Origin: Tardiphaga sp. 709 | Lineage (GTDB): Bacteria > Pseudomonadota > Alphaproteobacteria > Rhizobiales > Xanthobacteraceae | Assembly: GCF_032401055.1 (NCBI RefSeq) | Contig: NZ_CP135529.1 | Coordinates: forward strand, 1,240,001-1,304,000 | Length of the DNA stretch: 64,000 bases | Direction of reading: 5' to 3' | Shown here: one piece after another, positions 31,442 through 40,252 of the stretch | How the letters are laid out: each line of letters begins with the position of its first letter | How positions within the stretch are numbered: position 1 is the first letter of the stretch | Program-made: the position numbers and the translations under genes | Notes under the pieces: model-generated | Database searches by the model: none | What the model was told of the DNA's origin: nothing | What the model saw: only the letters and a program-made list of their open reading frames with translations

Positions 31442-32176
31442 TCACTTAGGCGCGTTGATTGTCGCCAACATCGCTTTGACGGCCTCCATTGCCGCATTGA
31501 GCTTATCCTGATCGCGCGAACGCACCACCAGATTGGTGTTCGGCTTGCCCTGTTCGTCCATGAACGGATAGCTGCCGATGATCGTATCCGGATGCGCCTT
31601 CGCGATATCGCGCAGCGGACCACCGACGTCCCCCTCCCGCGCATTGGCCTTCACCGTATCGGATAGCATCCGCAAACCAGATTTCAGCTTCGGCGACACG
31701 ATGTCCATCATCGCCTGCATGATCGTCGGCACGCCGGCCATCACGATCACATTGTCAATCTTGAAGCCGGGCGCCAGAATGGTCGCGCTCTGGATCAGGT
31801 CGGCGCCGTCAGGGATGCGTGCCATCCGCAGCCGGGCTTCGTTCAGGTCGGCGCCGAAGCGCTCCTGGAAACGTGCGACCACTTCGGGATGATGATCGAT
31901 CTTGACGCCGAACGCCTTGGCGACCGCATCCGCTGTGATGTCATCGTGGGTGGGGCCGATGCCGCCAGTGGTAAAAACGTAGGTGTAGCGTTTACGCAGC
32001 GCATCGAGCGCAGCGATGATGTCCGGCTCGTCGTCGGAGACGACGCGGACTTCCTTGAGATCGATGCCGATATTGGTGAGATACTCAGCGATGAAGCCGA
32101 TGTTCTTGTCCTTGGTCCGGCCTGACAGAATCTCGTCGCCAATCACCAGGATGCCCGCAGTTACAATCTCGGTCAT
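31442..32176 (-). CDS. CinA N-terminal-type molybdopterin-binding (MoCF_biosynth) protein
   Basis: A 244-residue protein starting MTEIVTAGILVIGDEILSGR, the MoCF/CinA signature. FTTGGIGPTHDDITADAVAKAF near residue 70 is the conserved phosphate-binding part, and VIVMAGVPTIMQAMM near 145 follows the family pattern. Stand-alone proteins of this kind lack the C-terminal nicotinamide-nucleotide amidase domain of full CinA, and their activity is poorly defined (FAD- or ADP-ribose-type pyrophosphatase has been suggested for relatives). I chose the ATG at 32176 since the 13 residues before it are not conserved-looking. It faces away from the ATP-grasp operon. Confidence 0.87.
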   Translation of the reverse strand: MTEIVTAGILVIGDEILSGRTKDKNIGFIAEYLTNIGIDLKEVRVVSDDEPDIIAALDALRKRYTYVFTTGGIGPTHDDITADAVAKAFGVKIDHHPEVVARFQERFGADLNEARLRMARIPDGADLIQSATILAPGFKIDNVIVMAGVPTIMQAMMDIVSPKLKSGLRMLSDTVKANAREGDVGGPLRDIAKAHPDTIIGSYPFMDEQGKPNTNLVVRSRDQDKLNAAMEAVKAMLATINAPK

Positions 32177-32397
32177 TTGTCGTTCCCTACCATTCCCGGG
32201 ACCATGCGCAGGCAAAGTCCCGATGTCACGGGGTTTTGCTGCCGAAACGAGCAGCGTCCAGCCGTTTTTTCAGGCAGCTTTACACGCATCTCATACGAAT
32301 TGCTCTTGTTGAATGCATATCGTGCTGGCCCGCCCCTTGCTACCATCCCTTTCAGTCGTGCAATCTCCGTACGGCCTCGAAACAACAGTCAGGGTAC

Positions 32398-33816
32398 ATG
32401 GCAGTCGCGTTCGACGAAATGAACGGGCCTCAAGGCGAGCTCCGCCCGGCCTATGAAGAACTCTCCCGCTGGCTCAAGGAGACGCCTCCGGACGCTTTGG
32501 AACATCGCCGCCAGGAAGCGGAGCTGCTGTTCCGCCGGATCGGCATCACCTTCGCGGTTTACGGCGACTCCGAATCCACCGAACGGCTGATCCCCTTCGA
32601 CGTCATTCCGCGGATCATTTCCGGCAAGGAATGGACCCTGCTGGAAAAGGGCCTGAAGCAGCGCACCCGCGCCATCAACATGTTCCTCAAGGACATCTAT
32701 CACGGCCGGGATATTCTCCGCGCCGGCCTGATCCCCGATGACCTGATCTTCCAGAATCCAGTGTTCCGTCCGGAGATGAACGGCCAGGACGTCCCCCACG
32801 ATGTCTATGTGCACATTGCCGGGATCGACATCGTCCGCACCAATCCGGACGAATTCTTCGTTCTCGAAGACAATGCCCGCACGCCCTCCGGCGTCTCCTA
32901 CATGTTGGAGAACCGCGAGATCATGATGCGGCTTTTCCCCGACCTGTTCGCGCGGCATCGCGTCGCGCCGGTCGAGAAATATCCCGACGAGCTATTGTCC
33001 TGCCTGCGCTCCGTCGCACCGCGCTCGGCCTCGACAGAGCCCACCGTTGCGCTGATGACACCCGGCGTCTACAACTCGGCCTATTACGAACACTCGTTCC
33101 TCGCCGACAAGCTCGGGGTCGAACTGGTCGAGGGCCGCGACCTCATCGTCAAGAACGATGAAGTCTTCATGCGCACCACCGAAGGCCTCAAACGCGTCGA
33201 CGTGATCTATCGCCGCGTCGATGACGATTTCCTCGATCCCCTCACCTTCCGCCCGGATTCAGCGCTCGGCGTCCCCGGCCTGATGTCCGCCTATATGGCT
33301 GGCAACGTCACGCTGGCCAACGCAGTCGGCACCGGCATCGCCGACGACAAGGCGATCTACAGCTACATGCCGGAAGTGGTGAAGTTCTATCTCGGCGAAG
33401 AGCCGATCCTGAAGAACGTTCCGACCTGGCGCTGTCGCGAAGCGGGCGATCTCGCTTATGTGCTCGATCACTTAAGCGAACTCGTCGTCAAGGAAGTCCA
33501 CGGCTCCGGCGGTTACGGCATGCTGATCGGGCCTGCTGCTACAAAAGCAACGATTGAAGCTTTCCGCGACAAGCTGAAGCGCGAGCCGGAAGGCTTCATC
33601 GCCCAGCCGACGCTGGCGCTCTCGACCTGCCCGACCTGCACCGAGTCAGGCCTCGCACCGCGGCATGTCGATCTTCGTCCCTTCGTGCTCACCGGCAGCA
33701 AGAACGTCTCCATCGTCGCAGGCGGGTTGACCCGCGTCGCGCTGAAGGAAGGCTCGCTGGTGGTGAATTCCAGCCAGGGCGGCGGCACCAAGGACACATG
33801 GATACTGGACGAATAA
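32398..33816 (+). CDS. Circularly permuted ATP-grasp protein (type 2)
   Basis: A 472-residue protein starting MAVAFDEMNGPQGELRPAYE. Family segments include RIGITFAVYGDSESTERLIPFD near residue 50, FFVLEDNARTPSGVSYMLENR near 158, LTPGVYNSAYYEHSFLA-like residues near 218, and VVKEVHGSGGYGMLIGPAAT near 363. The family (DUF404/DUF407 region) carries a permuted ATP-grasp fold of amino-acid or peptide ligases, activating a carboxylate as acyl-phosphate. It is the first gene of an operon with alpha-E, transglutaminase and Anbu genes. Published comparative genomics predicts a peptide-synthesis or protein-tagging role for such clusters; the substrate is unknown. Confidence 0.92.
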   Translation: MAVAFDEMNGPQGELRPAYEELSRWLKETPPDALEHRRQEAELLFRRIGITFAVYGDSESTERLIPFDVIPRIISGKEWTLLEKGLKQRTRAINMFLKDIYHGRDILRAGLIPDDLIFQNPVFRPEMNGQDVPHDVYVHIAGIDIVRTNPDEFFVLEDNARTPSGVSYMLENREIMMRLFPDLFARHRVAPVEKYPDELLSCLRSVAPRSASTEPTVALMTPGVYNSAYYEHSFLADKLGVELVEGRDLIVKNDEVFMRTTEGLKRVDVIYRRVDDDFLDPLTFRPDSALGVPGLMSAYMAGNVTLANAVGTGIADDKAIYSYMPEVVKFYLGEEPILKNVPTWRCREAGDLAYVLDHLSELVVKEVHGSGGYGMLIGPAATKATIEAFRDKLKREPEGFIAQPTLALSTCPTCTESGLAPRHVDLRPFVLTGSKNVSIVAGGLTRVALKEGSLVVNSSQGGGTKDTWILDE

Positions 33817-33878
33817 CTCTCGATATAGGCAACCGGACTTCGACCGACGACCCAATTTTCAAAGAGTAACATCCCCGC

Positions 33879-34823
33879 ATGCTGTCGCGCACCGCCGAGA
33901 ACCTTTACTGGCTAGCCCGCTATGTCGAACGCGCCGAATATCTCGCGCGCACGATCGAGGCGACACTGCGCGTCACCGCGCTGCCGAATACCTATATCGG
34001 CCAGACCAACGAATGGGATTCGGCGTTACTGACCGCAGGCGTCAGCGCGGCCTTTTACGAGATCTATGAGGAAGCCAACGAGACCAATGTCGTCGAATAT
34101 CTCTCGTTCTCGACGGCCAATCCCTCCTCGATCCGCAACTGCATCGAAGCCGCACGCCTGAACTCGCGCTCGGTCCGCACCGCACTGACCGGCGAGATGT
34201 GGGACACGATCAACAGCGCGTGGCTGGAGCTGCAATCCGCCTGGAGCGGCGGCGCCAAGACACGCGAGCAACTGGCGAACTTCCTCCGCTTCGTGCAGGA
34301 AACATCGCTGCGCTTCGACGGCTCAGCCTACCGGACCATGTTGCGCAACGACGCCTACTGGTTCTCGCGGCTCGGCCTGCATCTGGAGCGCGCCGACAAC
34401 ACCGCGCGCATTCTCGACGTCAAATATCATCTGCTGCTGCCCGAGGACGAACATGTCGGCGGCCCGCTCGACTACTATCAGTGGACTTCGATCCTACGCT
34501 CGGTCTCCGCGCTGACGGCCTATCACTGGGTCTATCGCGAGACGCTGAAGCCCTGGCTGATCGCCGACCTGCTGATCCTCAACGACACGCTGCCGCGCTC
34601 GCTGGCGAGCTGCTATGGCAATCTGGTCCGCAATCTCGACCAGATCGGCGTGTCCTATGGCCGTCAGGGCGCAGCGCAGCGCCACGCCCGCGGCGTCCGA
34701 AACCGGCTCGAACACAGCAACATGCAGGATATTTTCCAGCATGGGTTGCATGAATTCATCCAGGAATTCATTGCAGATAACAGCCGTCTGGGCGACATCA
34801 TTGCCAAACAATACCTGATTTGA
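33879..34823 (+). CDS. Alpha-E domain protein (DUF403)
   Basis: A 314-residue, almost entirely helical protein starting MLSRTAENLYWLARYVERAE, the family signature. Further typical segments are FLRFVQETSLRFDGSAYRTM near residue 138, YWFSRLGLHLERADNTARIL near 163, and a C-terminal LHEFIQEFIADNSRLGDIIA. It has no known enzymatic motif and always travels with the permuted ATP-grasp protein, so it is presumably a partner or scaffold of that ligase. It starts 62 bases after the ATP-grasp stop. Confidence 0.92.
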   Translation: MLSRTAENLYWLARYVERAEYLARTIEATLRVTALPNTYIGQTNEWDSALLTAGVSAAFYEIYEEANETNVVEYLSFSTANPSSIRNCIEAARLNSRSVRTALTGEMWDTINSAWLELQSAWSGGAKTREQLANFLRFVQETSLRFDGSAYRTMLRNDAYWFSRLGLHLERADNTARILDVKYHLLLPEDEHVGGPLDYYQWTSILRSVSALTAYHWVYRETLKPWLIADLLILNDTLPRSLASCYGNLVRNLDQIGVSYGRQGAAQRHARGVRNRLEHSNMQDIFQHGLHEFIQEFIADNSRLGDIIAKQYLI

Positions 34824-34863
34824 GCTAGCGTCCCGGCTCATCTGCAGATTCGGACACGTTGCC

Positions 34864-35706
34864 ATGCGCCTGCGTATCGCCCATTCGACGACCTATCGCT
34901 ACGAGCCGCCGGCTTCGGGCGTGATCCAGATTTTGCGGATGACGCCGGGCAGCCATGACGGCCAGTATGTCGCCGAGTGGCAGATCGACGTCTCCACCGA
35001 TTCCCGCCTCGATCTCCATGAAGATGCATTCGGCAATGTGACCCATGTGCTGACCCATGGGCCGATCGCCGACCTCACCGTGACCGTCGAAGGCCTGATC
35101 GACACCCAGGACACCGGGGGCGTGCTGAAGGGCACCGATGAGCGATTTCCGCCGAGCTTCTTCCTGCGCCAGACCGACCTGACCGACGCCAGCGCAGCGA
35201 TGCAGGCTTTTGCCAAGGACCTTGCGCCAAGCGCCGAAACCGACGTGCTCGGCTTCCTGCACGCGCTGATGATGGCCATCAACGAGCACATGACCTTCGA
35301 CGTCGATCCAACCAGCACCGGCACCTCGGCCAGCGAGGCCTTCATCGGCAAGCGTGGCGTCTGCCAGGATTACGCGCATATCTTCATCGCCTGTGCCCGC
35401 TCGGCCGGCGTCCCTGCCCGCTTCGTCTCCGGCCATTTCTGGCGTGCCGATGGCGAGACCAACCAGCAGGCCGGGCATGCCTGGGCCGAGGCCTACGTGC
35501 CGGATCTCGGCTGGGTCGGCTTCGACCCTGCCAATGCCATCTGCACCACCGACGCCCATGCCCGCGTTGCCATCGGCCTGGATTACCTTGGCGCAGCCCC
35601 TGTCCGCGGCACCCGTTATGGCGGCGGCACGGAAACCCTGACCGTCGCCGTCAAGGTCGATCAGGCCAATGGCCGCGGCCAGTCGCAGTCGCAGAGCCAG
35701 TCCTGA
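34864..35706 (+). CDS. Transglutaminase-like cysteine peptidase family protein
   Basis: A 280-residue protein starting MRLRIAHSTTYRYEPPASGV, the bacterial transglutaminase N-terminal domain. The catalytic triad is complete: Cys167 in RGVCQDYAH, His205 in QAGHAWAEAYV and Asp221 in GFDPANA. The C-terminus is a Ser-Gln run (QSQSQSQS). It is cytosolic with no signal peptide, and could cleave or form amide bonds on peptides made by the ATP-grasp ligase. It lies 40 bases after the alpha-E gene and 78 before the Anbu gene. Confidence 0.92.
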   Translation: MRLRIAHSTTYRYEPPASGVIQILRMTPGSHDGQYVAEWQIDVSTDSRLDLHEDAFGNVTHVLTHGPIADLTVTVEGLIDTQDTGGVLKGTDERFPPSFFLRQTDLTDASAAMQAFAKDLAPSAETDVLGFLHALMMAINEHMTFDVDPTSTGTSASEAFIGKRGVCQDYAHIFIACARSAGVPARFVSGHFWRADGETNQQAGHAWAEAYVPDLGWVGFDPANAICTTDAHARVAIGLDYLGAAPVRGTRYGGGTETLTVAVKVDQANGRGQSQSQSQS

Positions 35707-35784
35707 ACAACCTCAAACTGGTTTTCCGAGGTTGCCCGGTCGATACCCACCGCGTAAGACGCTTCCCTGATTAAGGGACCGACG

Positions 35785-36531
35785 ATGACTTATTGCTGCG
35801 GAATTCTCGTCAAGGACGGCCTGGTGATGATCGCGGACACGCGCACCAATGCCGGGCTCGACAATATCTCGACCTTCCGCAAACTGCATATCTTCAACCA
35901 GCCCGGCGACCGCATCATGGCGGTGGCCTCCGCGGGCAATCTGGCAATCAGCCAGTCGGTGCTCTCCACCCTGAGCGAGGGCCTCGAGAACCCGACCACC
36001 GGCGAGCTGGAGACCCTGCTGAACGCACCTACGATGTTTCAGGCTGCGCAGCGCATCGGCCGCGCCATCCGGCACGTCAACGCTACCGAGGGCAAGGCGC
36101 TGGAGGCCGAGGATATCAATTTCGACGTCTCGTTCCTGTTCGGCGGCCAGATCAAGGGCGCCAAGATGCGGCTGTTCATGATCTACCCGGCCGGCAATTT
36201 CATCGAATGCACGGTGGACACACCCTATCTGCAGATCGGCGAGCACAAATACGGCAAGCCGGTACTCGACCGCGCGATGCATTACGACGTCGAATTGTAC
36301 GAGGCGCTCAAGACCGGCCTGATCTCGATGGACTCGACCATGCGCTCGAATATCGGCGTCGGCCTGCCGATCGATGTGCTGGTGGTGCGCGCCGATGTCT
36401 GCGATGCCGATCTCAATCACCGTATCGAAGCCGGCGAGCCCTATTTCCACGACCTGCGCTCGCGCTGGTCGGCAGCACTGCGCGCGGCACATCAAAACAT
36501 TCCGCGCCCGCCCTACAAGAAAGACAATTGA
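35785..36531 (+). CDS. Anbu-type proteasome-like peptidase
   Basis: A 248-residue Ntn-hydrolase starting MTYCCGILVKDGLVMIADTR. After Met removal Thr2 would be the nucleophile, with Asp18 in IADTRTNAG and Lys33 in STFRKLHIF in the places expected for a proteasome beta active site. ADVCDADLNHRIEAGEPYF follows the Anbu pattern at the C-terminus. Anbu (ancestral beta subunit) forms open-ring or helical oligomers with weak or unknown peptidase activity. Its presence after ATP-grasp, alpha-E and transglutaminase genes is the recurrent Anbu operon; the natural substrate is not known. Confidence 0.92.
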   Translation: MTYCCGILVKDGLVMIADTRTNAGLDNISTFRKLHIFNQPGDRIMAVASAGNLAISQSVLSTLSEGLENPTTGELETLLNAPTMFQAAQRIGRAIRHVNATEGKALEAEDINFDVSFLFGGQIKGAKMRLFMIYPAGNFIECTVDTPYLQIGEHKYGKPVLDRAMHYDVELYEALKTGLISMDSTMRSNIGVGLPIDVLVVRADVCDADLNHRIEAGEPYFHDLRSRWSAALRAAHQNIPRPPYKKDN

Positions 36532-36542
36532 GCGCGGCCGCG

Positions 36543-37061
36543 ATGACTGCCGCCCCGATGAAATGGCGCATCATGACGGAGGCAGATCTGTCGTCCGTCC
36601 TCGCCATCGCCGATGCCGTTCATCCCGATTTCCCCGAAGATGAGGTCGTGTTCGCGAACCGCCTGGCGCTCGATCCCAACGGTTGCGCCGTGCTCGAAGC
36701 CCAGGACGGGATCAAGGGTTATCTCGTCAGCCATCCCTGGCAATTCAGGGAGCCGCCGTCACTGAACAGCCTGCTGACAATGCCCGCAGCGCCCTCGACC
36801 TTCTACATTCACGATCTCGCATTGCTGCCCGAAACCCGCAGATCCGGCGCGGCGACTGTGGCCGTCGATATGATGGCGGCACGCGCCCGGCTGATGCAAC
36901 TGCCCAACATGACGCTTGTTGCCGTCAACAATTCAGTTCATTTTTGGCAACGGCACGATTTCACCATCATGCGCGATTCCGAACTGGATCAAAAACTGCA
37001 AAGCTACGGCGACAACGCACGTTTCATGGTCCGGGACCTCACTCAAAAAGACCTCTCGTAA
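36543..37061 (+). CDS. GNAT family N-acetyltransferase
   Basis: A 172-residue protein starting [20 protein letters not shown]. The GNAT core is visible: [20 protein letters not shown] (the acetyl-CoA pyrophosphate-binding segment, with RRSGAA replacing the usual R/QxxGxG/A), then [17 protein letters not shown] (the second half of the fold). It begins 11 bases after the Anbu stop, so it is part of the same transcript and may modify a product of that system; this linkage is inferred. The substrate is unknown. Confidence 0.87.
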
Positions 37062-37083
37062 AAAGAAAACAGGGACGAAACAG

Positions 37084-37842
37084 ATGACCAACAAGATCGC
37101 ACTTGTGACCGGAGCTGGCACCGGCGTCGGCCGTGCCGCATCGCTCGCGCTGATGAATGCGGGCTTCACCGTCGTGCTCGCCGGTCGCCGGCTCGAACTG
37201 CTGCAAGAGACCCAAAAGCTCGGCGCGGCCAATGGCGGCAAGAGCCTCCCCGTGAGCGCCGACATGGCGGACCCCGCCTCCATTGCCGCGCTGTTCGCTA
37301 GGACCATGCAGGAATTCGGCCGGCTCGACGTGCTGTTCAACAATGCCGGCATGGGCGCGCCCGCGATTCCGTTCGAAGACCTCGGCCTCGAACAGTGGCA
37401 GGCTGTGGTGAACACTAATCTCACCGCGCCGTTCCTGTGCACGCAGCACGCCTTCCGCATCATGAAGGATCAGACGCCCCGCGGCGGCCGCATCATCAAT
37501 AATGGCTCGATCTCGGCGCATGCACCGCGCCCGTTCTCCGCCGCCTACACGTCGACCAAACACGCCATCACCGGCTTGACCAAGGCCAGCAATCTCGACG
37601 GCCGCGCCTATGACATCGCCGTCGGCCAGGTCGATATCGGCAACGCCGCCACACCCATGACCGACCGCATGGTCAACGGCCCCGGCGTGCTGCAGCCCGA
37701 CGGCACCTCGAAGCAGGAGCCACGCATGGACGCCAAAGCCGTCGGCGACGCTGTCGCCTATATGGCTGGCCTGCCGCTCGACGCCAATGTGCTGACCATG
37801 ACGGTCATGGCGACAAAGATGCCGTTCGTCGGACGCGGCTAA
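37084..37842 (+). CDS. SDR family oxidoreductase
   Basis: A 252-residue short-chain dehydrogenase starting [20 protein letters not shown], with the TGxxxGxG cofactor motif. NNAG lies near residue 91, a catalytic Ser in [10 protein letters not shown], and Tyr-x3-Lys in [19 protein letters not shown] after the second strand suggests NADP or NAD binding. It follows the GNAT gene by 22 bases and ends the operon before a hairpin at 37885-37910. Substrate unknown. Confidence 0.9.
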
Positions 37843-37920: not shown

Positions 37921-39171
37921 ATGCTGCAGCTACAATCGGCGTTCGGCGTCATCGCACTTTTGGGGATCGCCTGGGCGCTCGGTGAAAACCGCAGCAAGGT
38001 GTCGCTGAGACAGGCCGCGATCGGTCTCGCATTGACGATCGTCGCTGCCGTGATCCTGCTTAAGCTTCCCGTCGTGACGCGCGCCTTCAGCAGCATCAAC
38101 GATGCTGTCAGTACCATCGCCGCAGCGTCGCGTGCTGGCACATCCTTCGTGTTCGGTTATCTCGGCGGCGGCGCATTGCCGTTCGATCTCAAGAATCCCG
38201 GCGCGGATTTCGTTCTCGCGCTTCAAGCACTTCCCGTGGTGCTGGTCATCAGCGTGCTGACCAGCCTGTTGTTCTACTGGCGTATCCTGCCGCCGATCGT
38301 GCGCGGCATGGCGTGGCTGCTCGAACGCACGCTCGGCATCGGCGGCGCGGTCGGACTGTCAACGGCCGCGAACATCTTTCTGGGCATGGTCGAGGCCCCG
38401 TTGTTTATTCGCCCTTACCTCGCGCAGCTCACGCGCAGCGAACTGTTTCTGGTGATGACGGGCGGTATGGCGGGGATCGCCGGTACAGTGCTGGTGCTCT
38501 ACGCCACTTTCATGGCGCCACTGATCTCCGATGCATCGGCGCATTTCGTGATTGCTTCCGTGCTCTCGGCGCCAGCTGCGATCCTTGTCAGCCTGATCAT
38601 GGTGCCTGAGACGGAGGATCGTCGCACCGGTGGATTGCTCGCCAATCCGGACGCATCGGCCACGAGCACGATAGATGCGATCGTCAAGGGCACGAGTGCA
38701 GGCATCGAGCTACTCGTCAACATCATCGCCCTGCTGCTGGTGTTCGTGGCGCTGATGTATCTCATGAACGCGATCCTCATGATGATGCCCACCGTGGGAG
38801 GCAACACGCTGTCAGTACAGCGCATGCTGGGTTACGTGATGGCACCGGTGTGCTGGCTGATGGGCCTGCCGTGGGACCAGGCGCTGACCGCGGGCTCGCT
38901 GATGGGCGTCAAGACGATCCTCAACGAGTTGATCGCCTATGTTCAATTGGCGAAGCTCGGTCCCGATGCGCTGGATGCACGCTCGCGCCTCATTATGCTT
39001 TATGCGCTGTGCGGATTTGCAAATTTTGCCAGCCTCGGAATTATGATCGGAGGCCTGGGCACCATGGCGCCGGAACGTCGTAACGAAATCAACGCGCTCG
39101 GTGTGAAGTCGATCGTCTCGGGGACGCTGACGACCTGCCTGATGGGCGCGATCGTCGGCATGCTCACCTGA
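37921..39171 (+). CDS. Concentrative nucleoside transporter (CNT/NupC family)
   Basis: A 416-residue membrane protein starting MLQLQSAFGVIALLGIAWAL. CNT signatures are present: FVFGYLGGGALPF-like residues near 78, LSTAANIFLGMVEAPLFIRPY near 143, LTGGMAGIAGTVLVLYA-like residues near 180, and CGFANFASLGIMIGGLGTMAPERR near 362. It imports nucleosides with protons or sodium. Its start is 78 bases after the SDR stop, so it may be partly read from the operon upstream. It converges with the dipeptidase gene. Confidence 0.92.
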   Translation: MLQLQSAFGVIALLGIAWALGENRSKVSLRQAAIGLALTIVAAVILLKLPVVTRAFSSINDAVSTIAAASRAGTSFVFGYLGGGALPFDLKNPGADFVLALQALPVVLVISVLTSLLFYWRILPPIVRGMAWLLERTLGIGGAVGLSTAANIFLGMVEAPLFIRPYLAQLTRSELFLVMTGGMAGIAGTVLVLYATFMAPLISDASAHFVIASVLSAPAAILVSLIMVPETEDRRTGGLLANPDASATSTIDAIVKGTSAGIELLVNIIALLLVFVALMYLMNAILMMMPTVGGNTLSVQRMLGYVMAPVCWLMGLPWDQALTAGSLMGVKTILNELIAYVQLAKLGPDALDARSRLIMLYALCGFANFASLGIMIGGLGTMAPERRNEINALGVKSIVSGTLTTCLMGAIVGMLT

Positions 39172-39190: not shown

Positions 39191-40252
39191 TCAGCCGATC
39201 GTCCGCTGCAGCAGATCGAGCCAGTTGCCCGAGCCGAGCTTGCCGAGCAGCGTCTCGGAATAGCCCTTGTCGCGCAAGGCCAGGAACAGCGCCTGCAGGC
39301 CCGCGGCGGAGTCGATGGCCTCGGGCACCACCGCGCCGTCGAAATCCGATCCCAGCCCGACGTGATCCTCGCCCAGCTTCTCCAGCAGATAGTCGATCTG
39401 CTGCACCATTAGCTCGATGCCGGTGTCGGGCCGCATGCTGCCGTCGGGGCGCAGGAAGCAGGTCGCGAAATTCAGGCCGACCATGCCGCCGGTGTCGCGG
39501 ATCGCGGCGAGCTGCTTGTCGGTGAGATTGCGCGGCGACGGGCACAGCGCATGGGCATTGGAATGGGTCGCCACCAGCGGCGCCTTCGACAGCCGCGCCA
39601 CATCCCAAAAGCCCTTCTCGGTGATGTGCGACAGGTCGACCAGAATCTTCAGGTCATTGCAGGCGCCGATCAACCGCTCGCCGGCCGCGGTGAGACCGTC
39701 GCCGAGATCGGGCCCGGACGGGAAGTGAAACGGCACGCCATGGCCGAAGATGTTGGTCCGGCTCCACACCGGCCCGATCGACCGCAACCCCGCCGCATAG
39801 AGAACGTCGAGGAATCTGAGCTCGGCGTCGATGGCCTCCGCGCCTTCCAGATGGACCACCACGGCCAGCGCCTTGCGCTCAATGGCGGACCGGATTTCGG
39901 CGGTGGTGGTGCAGATCGCCACCGCGCCTGCGGAAGCGCGTTCGAGCTGCAGCAGGATGGCCAGTTCGGCGACGACGGAATTGCGGGCCTCGTCCATCGT
40001 CAGCGGCTCGGGAAGCGGCACGGCGTAGCGTCCGCCCGTCATCTGCGCCATGAATCCCGCTGACGCCTGAGCCGCCGGCGAATATAGCGCGAACAGCCCG
40101 CCGACGAACGCGCCGGCCTTCGCCTTCGGCAGGTCGATGTGACCGGCGGCTTCCCCGGTCAGGAAGTCGGATACCGGATCGTGCGATTGCGATTTGTACA
40201 GCCGCAGCAGCACATCGTTGTGACCGTCGAAAACCGGAACGGATGCAGTCAT
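39191..40252 (-). CDS. Membrane dipeptidase family protein (M19)
   Basis: A 353-residue protein with M19 zinc-site features: PVFDGHNDVLLRLYKS near residue 5 (HxD), VVHLEGAEAI near 133 with a bridging Glu, KILVDLSHITEKGFWDVA near 197, PLVATHSNAHALC near 225, and LGSDFDG near 298. There is no signal peptide, so it is cytoplasmic. It cleaves dipeptides, often with D-amino acids at the C-terminal side, and could feed from either the peptide-uptake island or peptidoglycan turnover. Confidence 0.92.
   Translation of the reverse strand: MTASVPVFDGHNDVLLRLYKSQSHDPVSDFLTGEAAGHIDLPKAKAGAFVGGLFALYSPAAQASAGFMAQMTGGRYAVPLPEPLTMDEARNSVVAELAILLQLERASAGAVAICTTTAEIRSAIERKALAVVVHLEGAEAIDAELRFLDVLYAAGLRSIGPVWSRTNIFGHGVPFHFPSGPDLGDGLTAAGERLIGACNDLKILVDLSHITEKGFWDVARLSKAPLVATHSNAHALCPSPRNLTDKQLAAIRDTGGMVGLNFATCFLRPDGSMRPDTGIELMVQQIDYLLEKLGEDHVGLGSDFDGAVVPEAIDSAAGLQALFLALRDKGYSETLLGKLGSGNWLDLLQRTIG

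Follow-up and report, generated by a model that had tools for sequence, protein, structure and literature searches.

A conserved, predicted sigma54 promoter with NtrC-type dyads upstream of the Anbu operon in Tardiphaga sp. 709 and its relatives

The window analysed here is a stretch of 64,000 nt of the genome of Tardiphaga sp. 709 (contig NZ_CP135529.1, positions 1,240,001 to 1,304,000). It contains a block of six genes on one strand, separated by intergenic gaps of 62, 40, 78, 11 and 22 bases, and encoding an ATP-grasp protein, an Alpha-E protein, a transglutaminase-like hydrolase, the proteasome-like protein Anbu, a GNAT acetyltransferase and a short-chain dehydrogenase (SDR). The open reading frames agree with the preliminary description in direction and spacing. 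A gene for a NupC-type nucleoside transporter is the seventh on this strand, 78 nt beyond the SDR gene. The six-gene block was found again in relatives and is therefore not a chance arrangement. The features are listed in Table 1.

Table 1. Genes and predicted regulatory features at the Anbu locus (positions within the window).
Feature	Position	Strand	Remarks
MoCF-domain gene, divergent	31442-32179	-	PF00994; synteny control
Dyad 1, TGC-N11-GCA	32237-32253		Proposed NtrC-type enhancer-binding protein site
Dyad 2, NGC-N11-GCA	32260-32276		Upstream of sigma54 element
Possible third TGC-N11-GCA match	32301-32317		Directly before -24 element
Predicted sigma54-type -24/-12 element	32326-32341	+	72 nt before ATP-grasp start; score 22.5 of 23.5
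ATP-grasp	32398-33816	+	Circularly permuted, first gene of Anbu operon; PF14403/PF04174, PDB 3n6x
Alpha-E	33879-34823	+	PF04168; ERA at residues 17 and 170
Transglutaminase-like cysteine hydrolase	34864-35706	+	PF08379 and PF01841; C167, H205, D221
Anbu, proteasome-like Ntn hydrolase	35785-36531	+	PDB 5loy, 5nyj, 5nyf, 5nyw, 5lox; T2, D18, K33
GNAT acetyltransferase	36543-37061	+	PF00583; judged passenger
SDR, short-chain dehydrogenase	37084-37842	+	PF00106; judged syntenic neighbour
NupC-type nucleoside transporter	37921-39171	+	PF07662/PF01773; same-strand neighbour

The first four genes are the Anbu operon described by Valas and Bourne (2008) and Iyer et al. (2009), as cited in the accessible text of PMC6376114 and PMC5666114. 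The locus shares with these accounts the four genes, their order and their strand, and its Anbu and ATP-grasp proteins are close to proteins of solved structure; it differs in that a promoter is described here and that GNAT, SDR and NupC genes lie downstream. The earlier view that these four genes form a recurrent set without an established substrate agrees with the published accounts, as far as their accessible text goes. All four genes were present in 58 of the 72 family loci whose upstream sequence was long enough.

The ATP-grasp protein matched Pfam CP_ATPgrasp_2 (E 3.1e-167) and PDB 3n6x (E 9.7e-209), the Alpha-E protein matched Pfam Alpha-E (E 3.4e-90), and the transglutaminase-like protein matched Transglut_core (E 3.1e-23) and Bact_transglu_N (E 1.4e-18). 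Anbu matched Pfam Proteasome (E 3.5e-8), and all five of its PDB matches at E ≤ 1e-5 were Anbu entries or entries named 'Peptidase' (best 5loy, E 4.2e-82). All six residues of the two triads named in the preliminary description, Cys167-His205-Asp221 and Thr2-Asp18-Lys33, are present. The Alpha-E sequence had no relative in PDB at E ≤ 1, and the best PDB match to its predicted fold had E 1.2 (model pLDDT 78.6). A new fold was nevertheless not supported, as residues 184-223 were poorly modelled. In the accessible text of the published work, the activity reported for the ATP-grasp protein of Yersinia bercovieri is phosphate release only, no peptidase activity was detected for Anbu, and the operon proteins showed no specific interaction.

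Upstream of the first gene, we searched for sigma54 elements in the 220 nt before each gene, with a maximum score of 23.5 and a threshold of ≥20; the consensus and its weights are our own. A site at or above the threshold preceded the ATP-grasp gene in 50 of the 59 family-set loci, representing 26 of 31 genera or families. When other genes of these loci were examined in this way, the counts were 0/59 for Alpha-E, 1/59 for the transglutaminase-like gene, 1/59 for Anbu, 0/51 for SDR, 1/51 for MoCF, 1/40 for XGPRT and 7/30 for NupC (0/30 at ≥21). Among named organisms (61 of 80 loci, those with an ATP-grasp start and an upstream stretch), the site was found in 52 of 61. Distances to the ATP-grasp start were 50-105 nt in 46 of 50 cases, most commonly 72 nt. 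The high column information of these sites is not used as evidence, as their selection by score partly produces it. No site reached the threshold in nine of the 59 family-set loci and nine of the 61 named loci, including four of five from Bosea. The exact pattern occurred 18 times in the genome and the reversed pattern 14 times, so that one such site by itself hardly exceeds chance expectation. The genome contains rpoN. The conserved -24/-12 element before the first gene is predicted to be a sigma54 promoter. The preliminary description did not include it, and searches of one open-licence library gave no published description of it. Its novelty is limited, as a sigma54 link for Anbu has already been printed in one line of a survey. 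Scans for sigma70 promoters and terminators gave no excess over chance expectation and were thus uninformative.

The TGC-N11-GCA dyad recurs at -88/-89 in Tardiphaga, Bradyrhizobium, Afipia, Rhodopseudomonas faecalis and others. We compared it with the promoters of glnK, the gene after which we take to be amtB. Of 30 glnK loci, 18 reached a sigma54 score of ≥20 (counted by genome, 30 of 61), and a strict dyad at -160/-161 was present in 10 of the 13 genera involved; four loci (L175, L176, L178 and L186, each with a sigma54 score of 20.5) fell outside the glnK start pattern. The glnK and Anbu operon promoters of this family resemble each other in having a sigma54 site with upstream TGC-N11-GCA dyads, whereas the dyads are at about -160 and -121 before glnK and at -88 and -65 before the Anbu operon. 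The Anbu operon genes, the sigma54 site with its conservation and position, and the like dyad before glnK were all observed here.

Of 27 genera or families, 12 had a site in the Anbu upstream region at p ≤ 0.05 with a matrix built from the glnK dyads, and the other 15 did not; these p values are biased, since it was in the Anbu regions themselves that the pattern first drew attention. This test was restricted beforehand to loci with a usable sigma54 site and upstream stretch, and thus excluded L049, L098, L099, L109, L112, L124 and L129, as well as L101, which was outside the upstream set. In the genus of the window, the best match to the matrix was the -25 site rather than the -89 dyad in 14 of 15 rows. 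In Tardiphaga sp. 709, nirB also has a sigma54 site, one of the 18 genome occurrences, with a dyad at -87 and the start codon 178 nt downstream, and the genome contains an ntrC gene with the GAFTGA motif. Taken together, the sigma54 site and the NtrC-type dyads predict nitrogen control of the Anbu operon.

Reports from other bacteria bear on this prediction. According to the accessible text of PMC5491218, genes I35_5080-83 of Burkholderia cenocepacia H111 are under NtrC and sigma54, and mutation of ntrC lowered their expression 6.0 to 9.4 fold. These genes are like those studied here in encoding DUF404/407 (ATP-grasp), DUF403 (Alpha-E) and transglutaminase-like proteins; they differ in that the transglutaminase-like protein is large and that Anbu is not named in that text. 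In nitrogen-limited Pseudomonas putida, Anbu was raised (Hervas 2008, as cited in the accessible text of PMC5666114 and PMC6376114). The main text of a study of nitrogen stress in Sinorhizobium meliloti (PMC3596328) contains neither 'transglutaminase' nor 'proteasome', which would count against the prediction if that species carries Anbu.

Tardiphaga sp. 709 has a second ATP-grasp/Alpha-E cluster, which resembles Burkholderia I35_5080-83. Sigma54 control of this cluster was considered and rejected, as the best score before its first gene was 18.0, not a good site.

Several other readings of the locus can be set against nitrogen control of the four-gene operon. The preliminary description regarded the GNAT and SDR genes as an extension of the operon and their tight linkage as a hint of acylation and redox steps. 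A six-gene pathway of this kind, in which GNAT acylates and SDR reduces the product of the core four, would fit the shared strand, the short spacers of 11 and 22 nt and the lack of terminator-like sites between the six genes in a simple scan (two in the region, 4.8 expected). The adjacency indeed holds, and it is not confined to one strain, since both genes adjoin Anbu in relatives. The GNAT protein matched Acetyltransf_1 (E 4e-7), and its fold is generic; the best PDB matches, which include Ard1, N-acetylglutamate synthase and serotonin acetyltransferase, gave no hint of its substrate. Among 198 sampled genomes of the family, GNAT was beside Anbu in only 22 of the 85 genomes bearing it, all from three genera, and away from Anbu in the other 63. 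Outside these three genera, its frequency was similar in genomes with Anbu (52/141) and without Anbu (11/35). GNAT thus showed no association with Anbu beyond one lineage. The Anbu-adjacent copies formed one clade (in a tree of 30 of the 85 genomes), and the dN/dS of GNAT (0.29) was the highest of eight genes compared (others 0.05-0.14). GNAT was rejected as a pathway enzyme on its distribution and tree. As for the SDR (adh_short, E 7.5e-47), a six-gene pathway would fit its position near Anbu in 27 of 37 genera, of which 16 have it within 400 nt, and its median dN/dS of 0.07, which indicates strong purifying selection. However, the divergent MoCF gene, our single control for background synteny, was near Anbu in 27 of 36 genera, and the linkage of SDR is no higher. 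Furthermore, SDR relatives occurred in 13 of 25 Anbu-less genomes (25 of the 35 were searched, some of them incomplete) and in four of five chosen genomes whose Anbu sits elsewhere, and no SDR was seen within 7 kb of Anbu in the Methylobacterium loci. In at least eight genera a GGDEF/EAL gene splits Anbu from SDR; the 2.5 kb insert was rejected as a further operon gene, as it encodes this protein of 734-792 codons (nine loci tested). SDR was likewise rejected as a pathway enzyme, on the synteny control and its presence in Anbu-less genomes. Hence, the proposed functional unit and its acylation and redox steps were not supported, and a six-gene pathway is very unlikely. GNAT and SDR are probably neighbours that may share the transcript but are not needed by the Anbu system, and the synteny control ranks them lower as candidate enzymes.

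The signal behind sigma54 control could also be something else than nitrogen, relayed by a different enhancer-binding protein. The spacing of 23 bases between the dyads before the Anbu operon differs from the 32 that we take to separate the NtrC sites of E. coli glnA. Moreover, at least two further GAFTGA proteins (L318 and L320) match the ntrC model below the cut-off, and most Methylobacterium and Methylorubrum loci have a sigma54 site without the TGC-N11-GCA dyad. Against this stand the dyads of like form that precede glnK and nirB in the Tardiphaga genome, and the nitrogen control reported for Anbu of P. putida and for the related Burkholderia genes in the accessible texts cited above, which leave another signal doubtful. 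General protein quality control, in which Anbu degrades misfolded or tagged proteins, is assumed for COG3484 in the accessible text of PMC12316311. Such a role would suit a proteasome-like protein with its triad residues present, but the operon lacks an AAA+ partner and the published tests mentioned above detected no peptidase activity; we consider it unlikely.

We therefore return to nitrogen control of the four-gene operon. Nitrogen starvation probably switches the Anbu operon on, through a sigma54 promoter and an NtrC-type enhancer-binding protein, and the operon would carry out a build-and-recycle chemistry. In this explanation, the promoter would be activated by an NtrC-type protein bound at the dyads, which lie some 65-90 bases before the -24 box, and nitrogen starvation would be the condition that turns the operon on. 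The ATP-grasp protein, with Alpha-E as its partner, may use ATP to form an amide bond. The product may then be removed or recycled by the transglutaminase-like enzyme and Anbu, a step that would conserve amide or peptide nitrogen under scarcity. Binding by NtrC itself, nitrogen as the signal and the chemistry of the core enzymes are all inferred. Only tentatively can one go further and suggest that the operon of these Alphaproteobacteria belongs to the NtrC response to nitrogen starvation, with ATP-grasp and Alpha-E building an amide-linked nitrogen reserve or a protein tag that the transglutaminase-like enzyme and Anbu dismantle.

The conserved, predicted sigma54 promoter and the NtrC-type dyads supply a condition, a regulator and laboratory hosts (Bradyrhizobium, Tardiphaga) for a search for the product. 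If this last, tentative reading is true, a relative of the proteasome would serve the nitrogen economy of the cell rather than general protein quality control.

The six genes of the preliminary description were confirmed in position, intergenic gaps and catalytic residues by open reading frames and a residue check. Comparisons with Pfam and the PDB identified a circularly permuted ATP-grasp protein, an Alpha-E protein, a bacterial transglutaminase-like protein and Anbu (the four core genes), followed by a GNAT and an SDR; the next gene on the same strand encodes a NupC-type transporter. The window lies at 1,240,001-1,304,000 of contig C1 of a 6.36 Mb genome in two contigs. Its Anbu is 95 and 91 percent identical to those of two Tardiphaga MAGs, the nearest named records.

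Features around the Anbu operon (window positions)
Feature	Position	Strand	Context	Basis
Dyad 1, TGC-N11-GCA	32237-32253		tandem with dyad 2	
Dyad 2, NGC-N11-GCA	32260-32276		tandem with dyad 1	
Sigma54-type element	32326-32341		before ATP-grasp gene	pattern score
Membrane dipeptidase (Peptidase_M19) gene	39191-40252	-	convergent with NupC gene	

Anbu was found in 163 of a sample of 198 Xanthobacteraceae genomes (40 of 47 genera). We retrieved 80 loci (79 genomes; 77 loci belong to the family and three to other families in the order) and mapped their genes with tblastn (E ≤ 1e-6). Upstream sequence was sufficient in 72 family loci, and 58 of these (29 of 36 genera) had all four core genes. In four loci (L081, L082, L094, L116) the MoCF gene, which is divergent from the operon in the window, stands directly before Anbu without the other three core genes beside it. 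In these and three further loci (L246, L250, L261) Anbu adjoins MoCF and the interval contains no match to the ATP-grasp, Alpha-E or transglutaminase gene; the three genes have apparently been lost from the locus. In twelve loci (L043, L045, L080, L101, L224-L226, L229, L231, L271, L278, L291) about 1.7 to 3.4 kb of inserted sequence separates Anbu from the transglutaminase gene, and a Hyphomicrobiales MAG (L293) has a tandem pair of Anbu genes, 64 and 57 percent identical to the query, after the other core genes.

A sigma54-type element precedes the ATP-grasp gene. The exact pattern occurred 18 times in the genome, versus 14 times for a reversed control, and hence a single site by itself proves little. 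Conservation of the putative element says more than one site in one genome. With a consensus and weights of our own (maximum 23.5) and start codons assigned by alignment, a score of at least 20 was reached within the 220 nt upstream of the ATP-grasp gene in 50 of 59 loci, which represent 26 of 31 genera or families, although these loci are related by descent and the counts are not independent. The distance to the start codon was 50-105 nt in 46 of the 50, most commonly 72. Nine loci scored below 20 (L049, L097, L098, L099, L108, L109, L112, L124, L129). At the same threshold, sites were found before Alpha-E in 0/59 loci, transglutaminase in 1/59, Anbu in 1/59, SDR in 0/51, MoCF in 1/51 and XGPRT in 1/40; NupC reached 20 in 7/30 and 21 or more in 0/30. 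For named organisms the test could be applied to 61 of 80 loci; 52 scored at least 20 and nine fell below, five of them Bosea or Boseaceae.

Three Bosea or Boseaceae loci (L266, L271, L277) and one of a Rhizobiales bacterium (L269) have a TGC-N11-GCA dyad upstream, with no good sigma54 element found. A second cluster in the genome of the window (L314, C1:1453060-1459125) encodes an ATP-grasp/Alpha-E fusion protein (about 841 codons), a transglutaminase-like protein and a second, large protein of that type (about 1095 codons); an upstream scan revealed no good sigma54 site.

The tandem dyads recur in many genera at a constant distance from the -24 box. As the pattern was first spotted upstream of Anbu, glnK promoters, taken from 30 of 61 family genomes, served as an outside check. 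A sigma54 site scoring at least 20 was found in 18 of the 30, and a strict dyad of the same form preceded glnK in 10 of the 13 genera with such a site, each at -160 or -161. When the glnK-dyad matrix was run over the Anbu upstream regions, where the pattern had first been noticed, 12 of the 27 genera or families reached p ≤ 0.05 relative to shuffled sequence, and 18 reached p ≤ 0.1; in the genus of the window, the best match was a site at -25 rather than the -89 dyad in 14 of 15 rows. At nirB in this genome, a sigma54 site is accompanied by a dyad at -87, although the gene starts 178 nt further on. The genome encodes rpoN and an NtrC that exceeds the curated cut-off and has a GAFTGA loop. We infer that NtrC binds the dyads and that nitrogen is the signal. 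Caulobacter NtrC is described without the loop (PMC10274813), so this reading is not transferable to all Alphaproteobacteria.

The preliminary description had extended the operon by the GNAT and the SDR. A GNAT match was found at one locus each in 85 of the 198 genomes (in two pieces in G011; partial and weak in G062). Comparison of coordinates placed it beside Anbu in 22 genomes: 11 of the genus of the window, which are all of that genus in the sample, ten of g40 and one of g58. Outside these three genera it occurred in 52 of 141 genomes with Anbu versus 11 of 35 without, and hence there is no clear association. Gene mapping with tblastn found no GNAT beside Anbu in L036 and L047, which belong to the genus of the window. 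A tree of 30 GNATs places the 15 Anbu-adjacent copies together on one side of a branch (support 97/96), and the median dN/dS within the genus was 0.29 (7 usable of 10 comparisons), versus 0.05 to 0.14 for the seven other genes. The simplest reading is a single insertion of an independent, fast-evolving gene.

Among the 76 family loci that extend far enough downstream or show an SDR, 59 (27 of 37 genera) have the SDR in the same orientation as Anbu and no more than 5.6 kb away; in 27 of the 59 it lies within 400 nt. MoCF, the sole control gene counted for synteny, is divergent and cannot share a transcript; it is kept at the same level (55 of 72 loci, 27 of 36 genera). A GGDEF/EAL gene of 734-792 codons separates Anbu from the SDR in eight loci of eight genera. 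Relatives of the SDR, 62-76 percent identical, are present in 13 of 25 genomes that lack Anbu, and also in four of five chosen genomes where Anbu is not beside the SDR. Among named loci no SDR match was found within 7 kb in Methylobacterium or in four of five Bosea. For these reasons we regard the SDR as a stable neighbour of the operon.

The four-gene operon has already been described, with its role unconfirmed (PMC6376114, PMC5666114). A 2025 survey names COG3484, a proteasome-type protease, as one of the groups overrepresented in the sigma54 regulons predicted for alpha-, beta- and gamma-Proteobacteria, and interprets this as quality control (PMC12316311). Burkholderia cenocepacia I35_5080-83 is reported to depend on NtrC and sigma54 (PMC5491218), and an association of urea-metabolism domains with those of ATP-grasp, Alpha-E and transglutaminase is reported from marine metagenomes (PMC3597751). 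A sigma54 or nitrogen link is thus not new as such; as far as the open-licence literature searched shows, the novelty lies in the layout of the promoter and in its conservation within Xanthobacteraceae.

Structural work contributes little on mechanism: PDB comparison by sequence and by model fold found no solved relative of Alpha-E, and the GNAT fold is generic. Most likely, the ATP-grasp enzyme would form an amide bond together with Alpha-E, and the transglutaminase-like enzyme and Anbu would reverse or trim the product, a scheme close to the proposal of earlier authors. The putative nitrogen signal would most likely point to amide nitrogen being recovered or stored.
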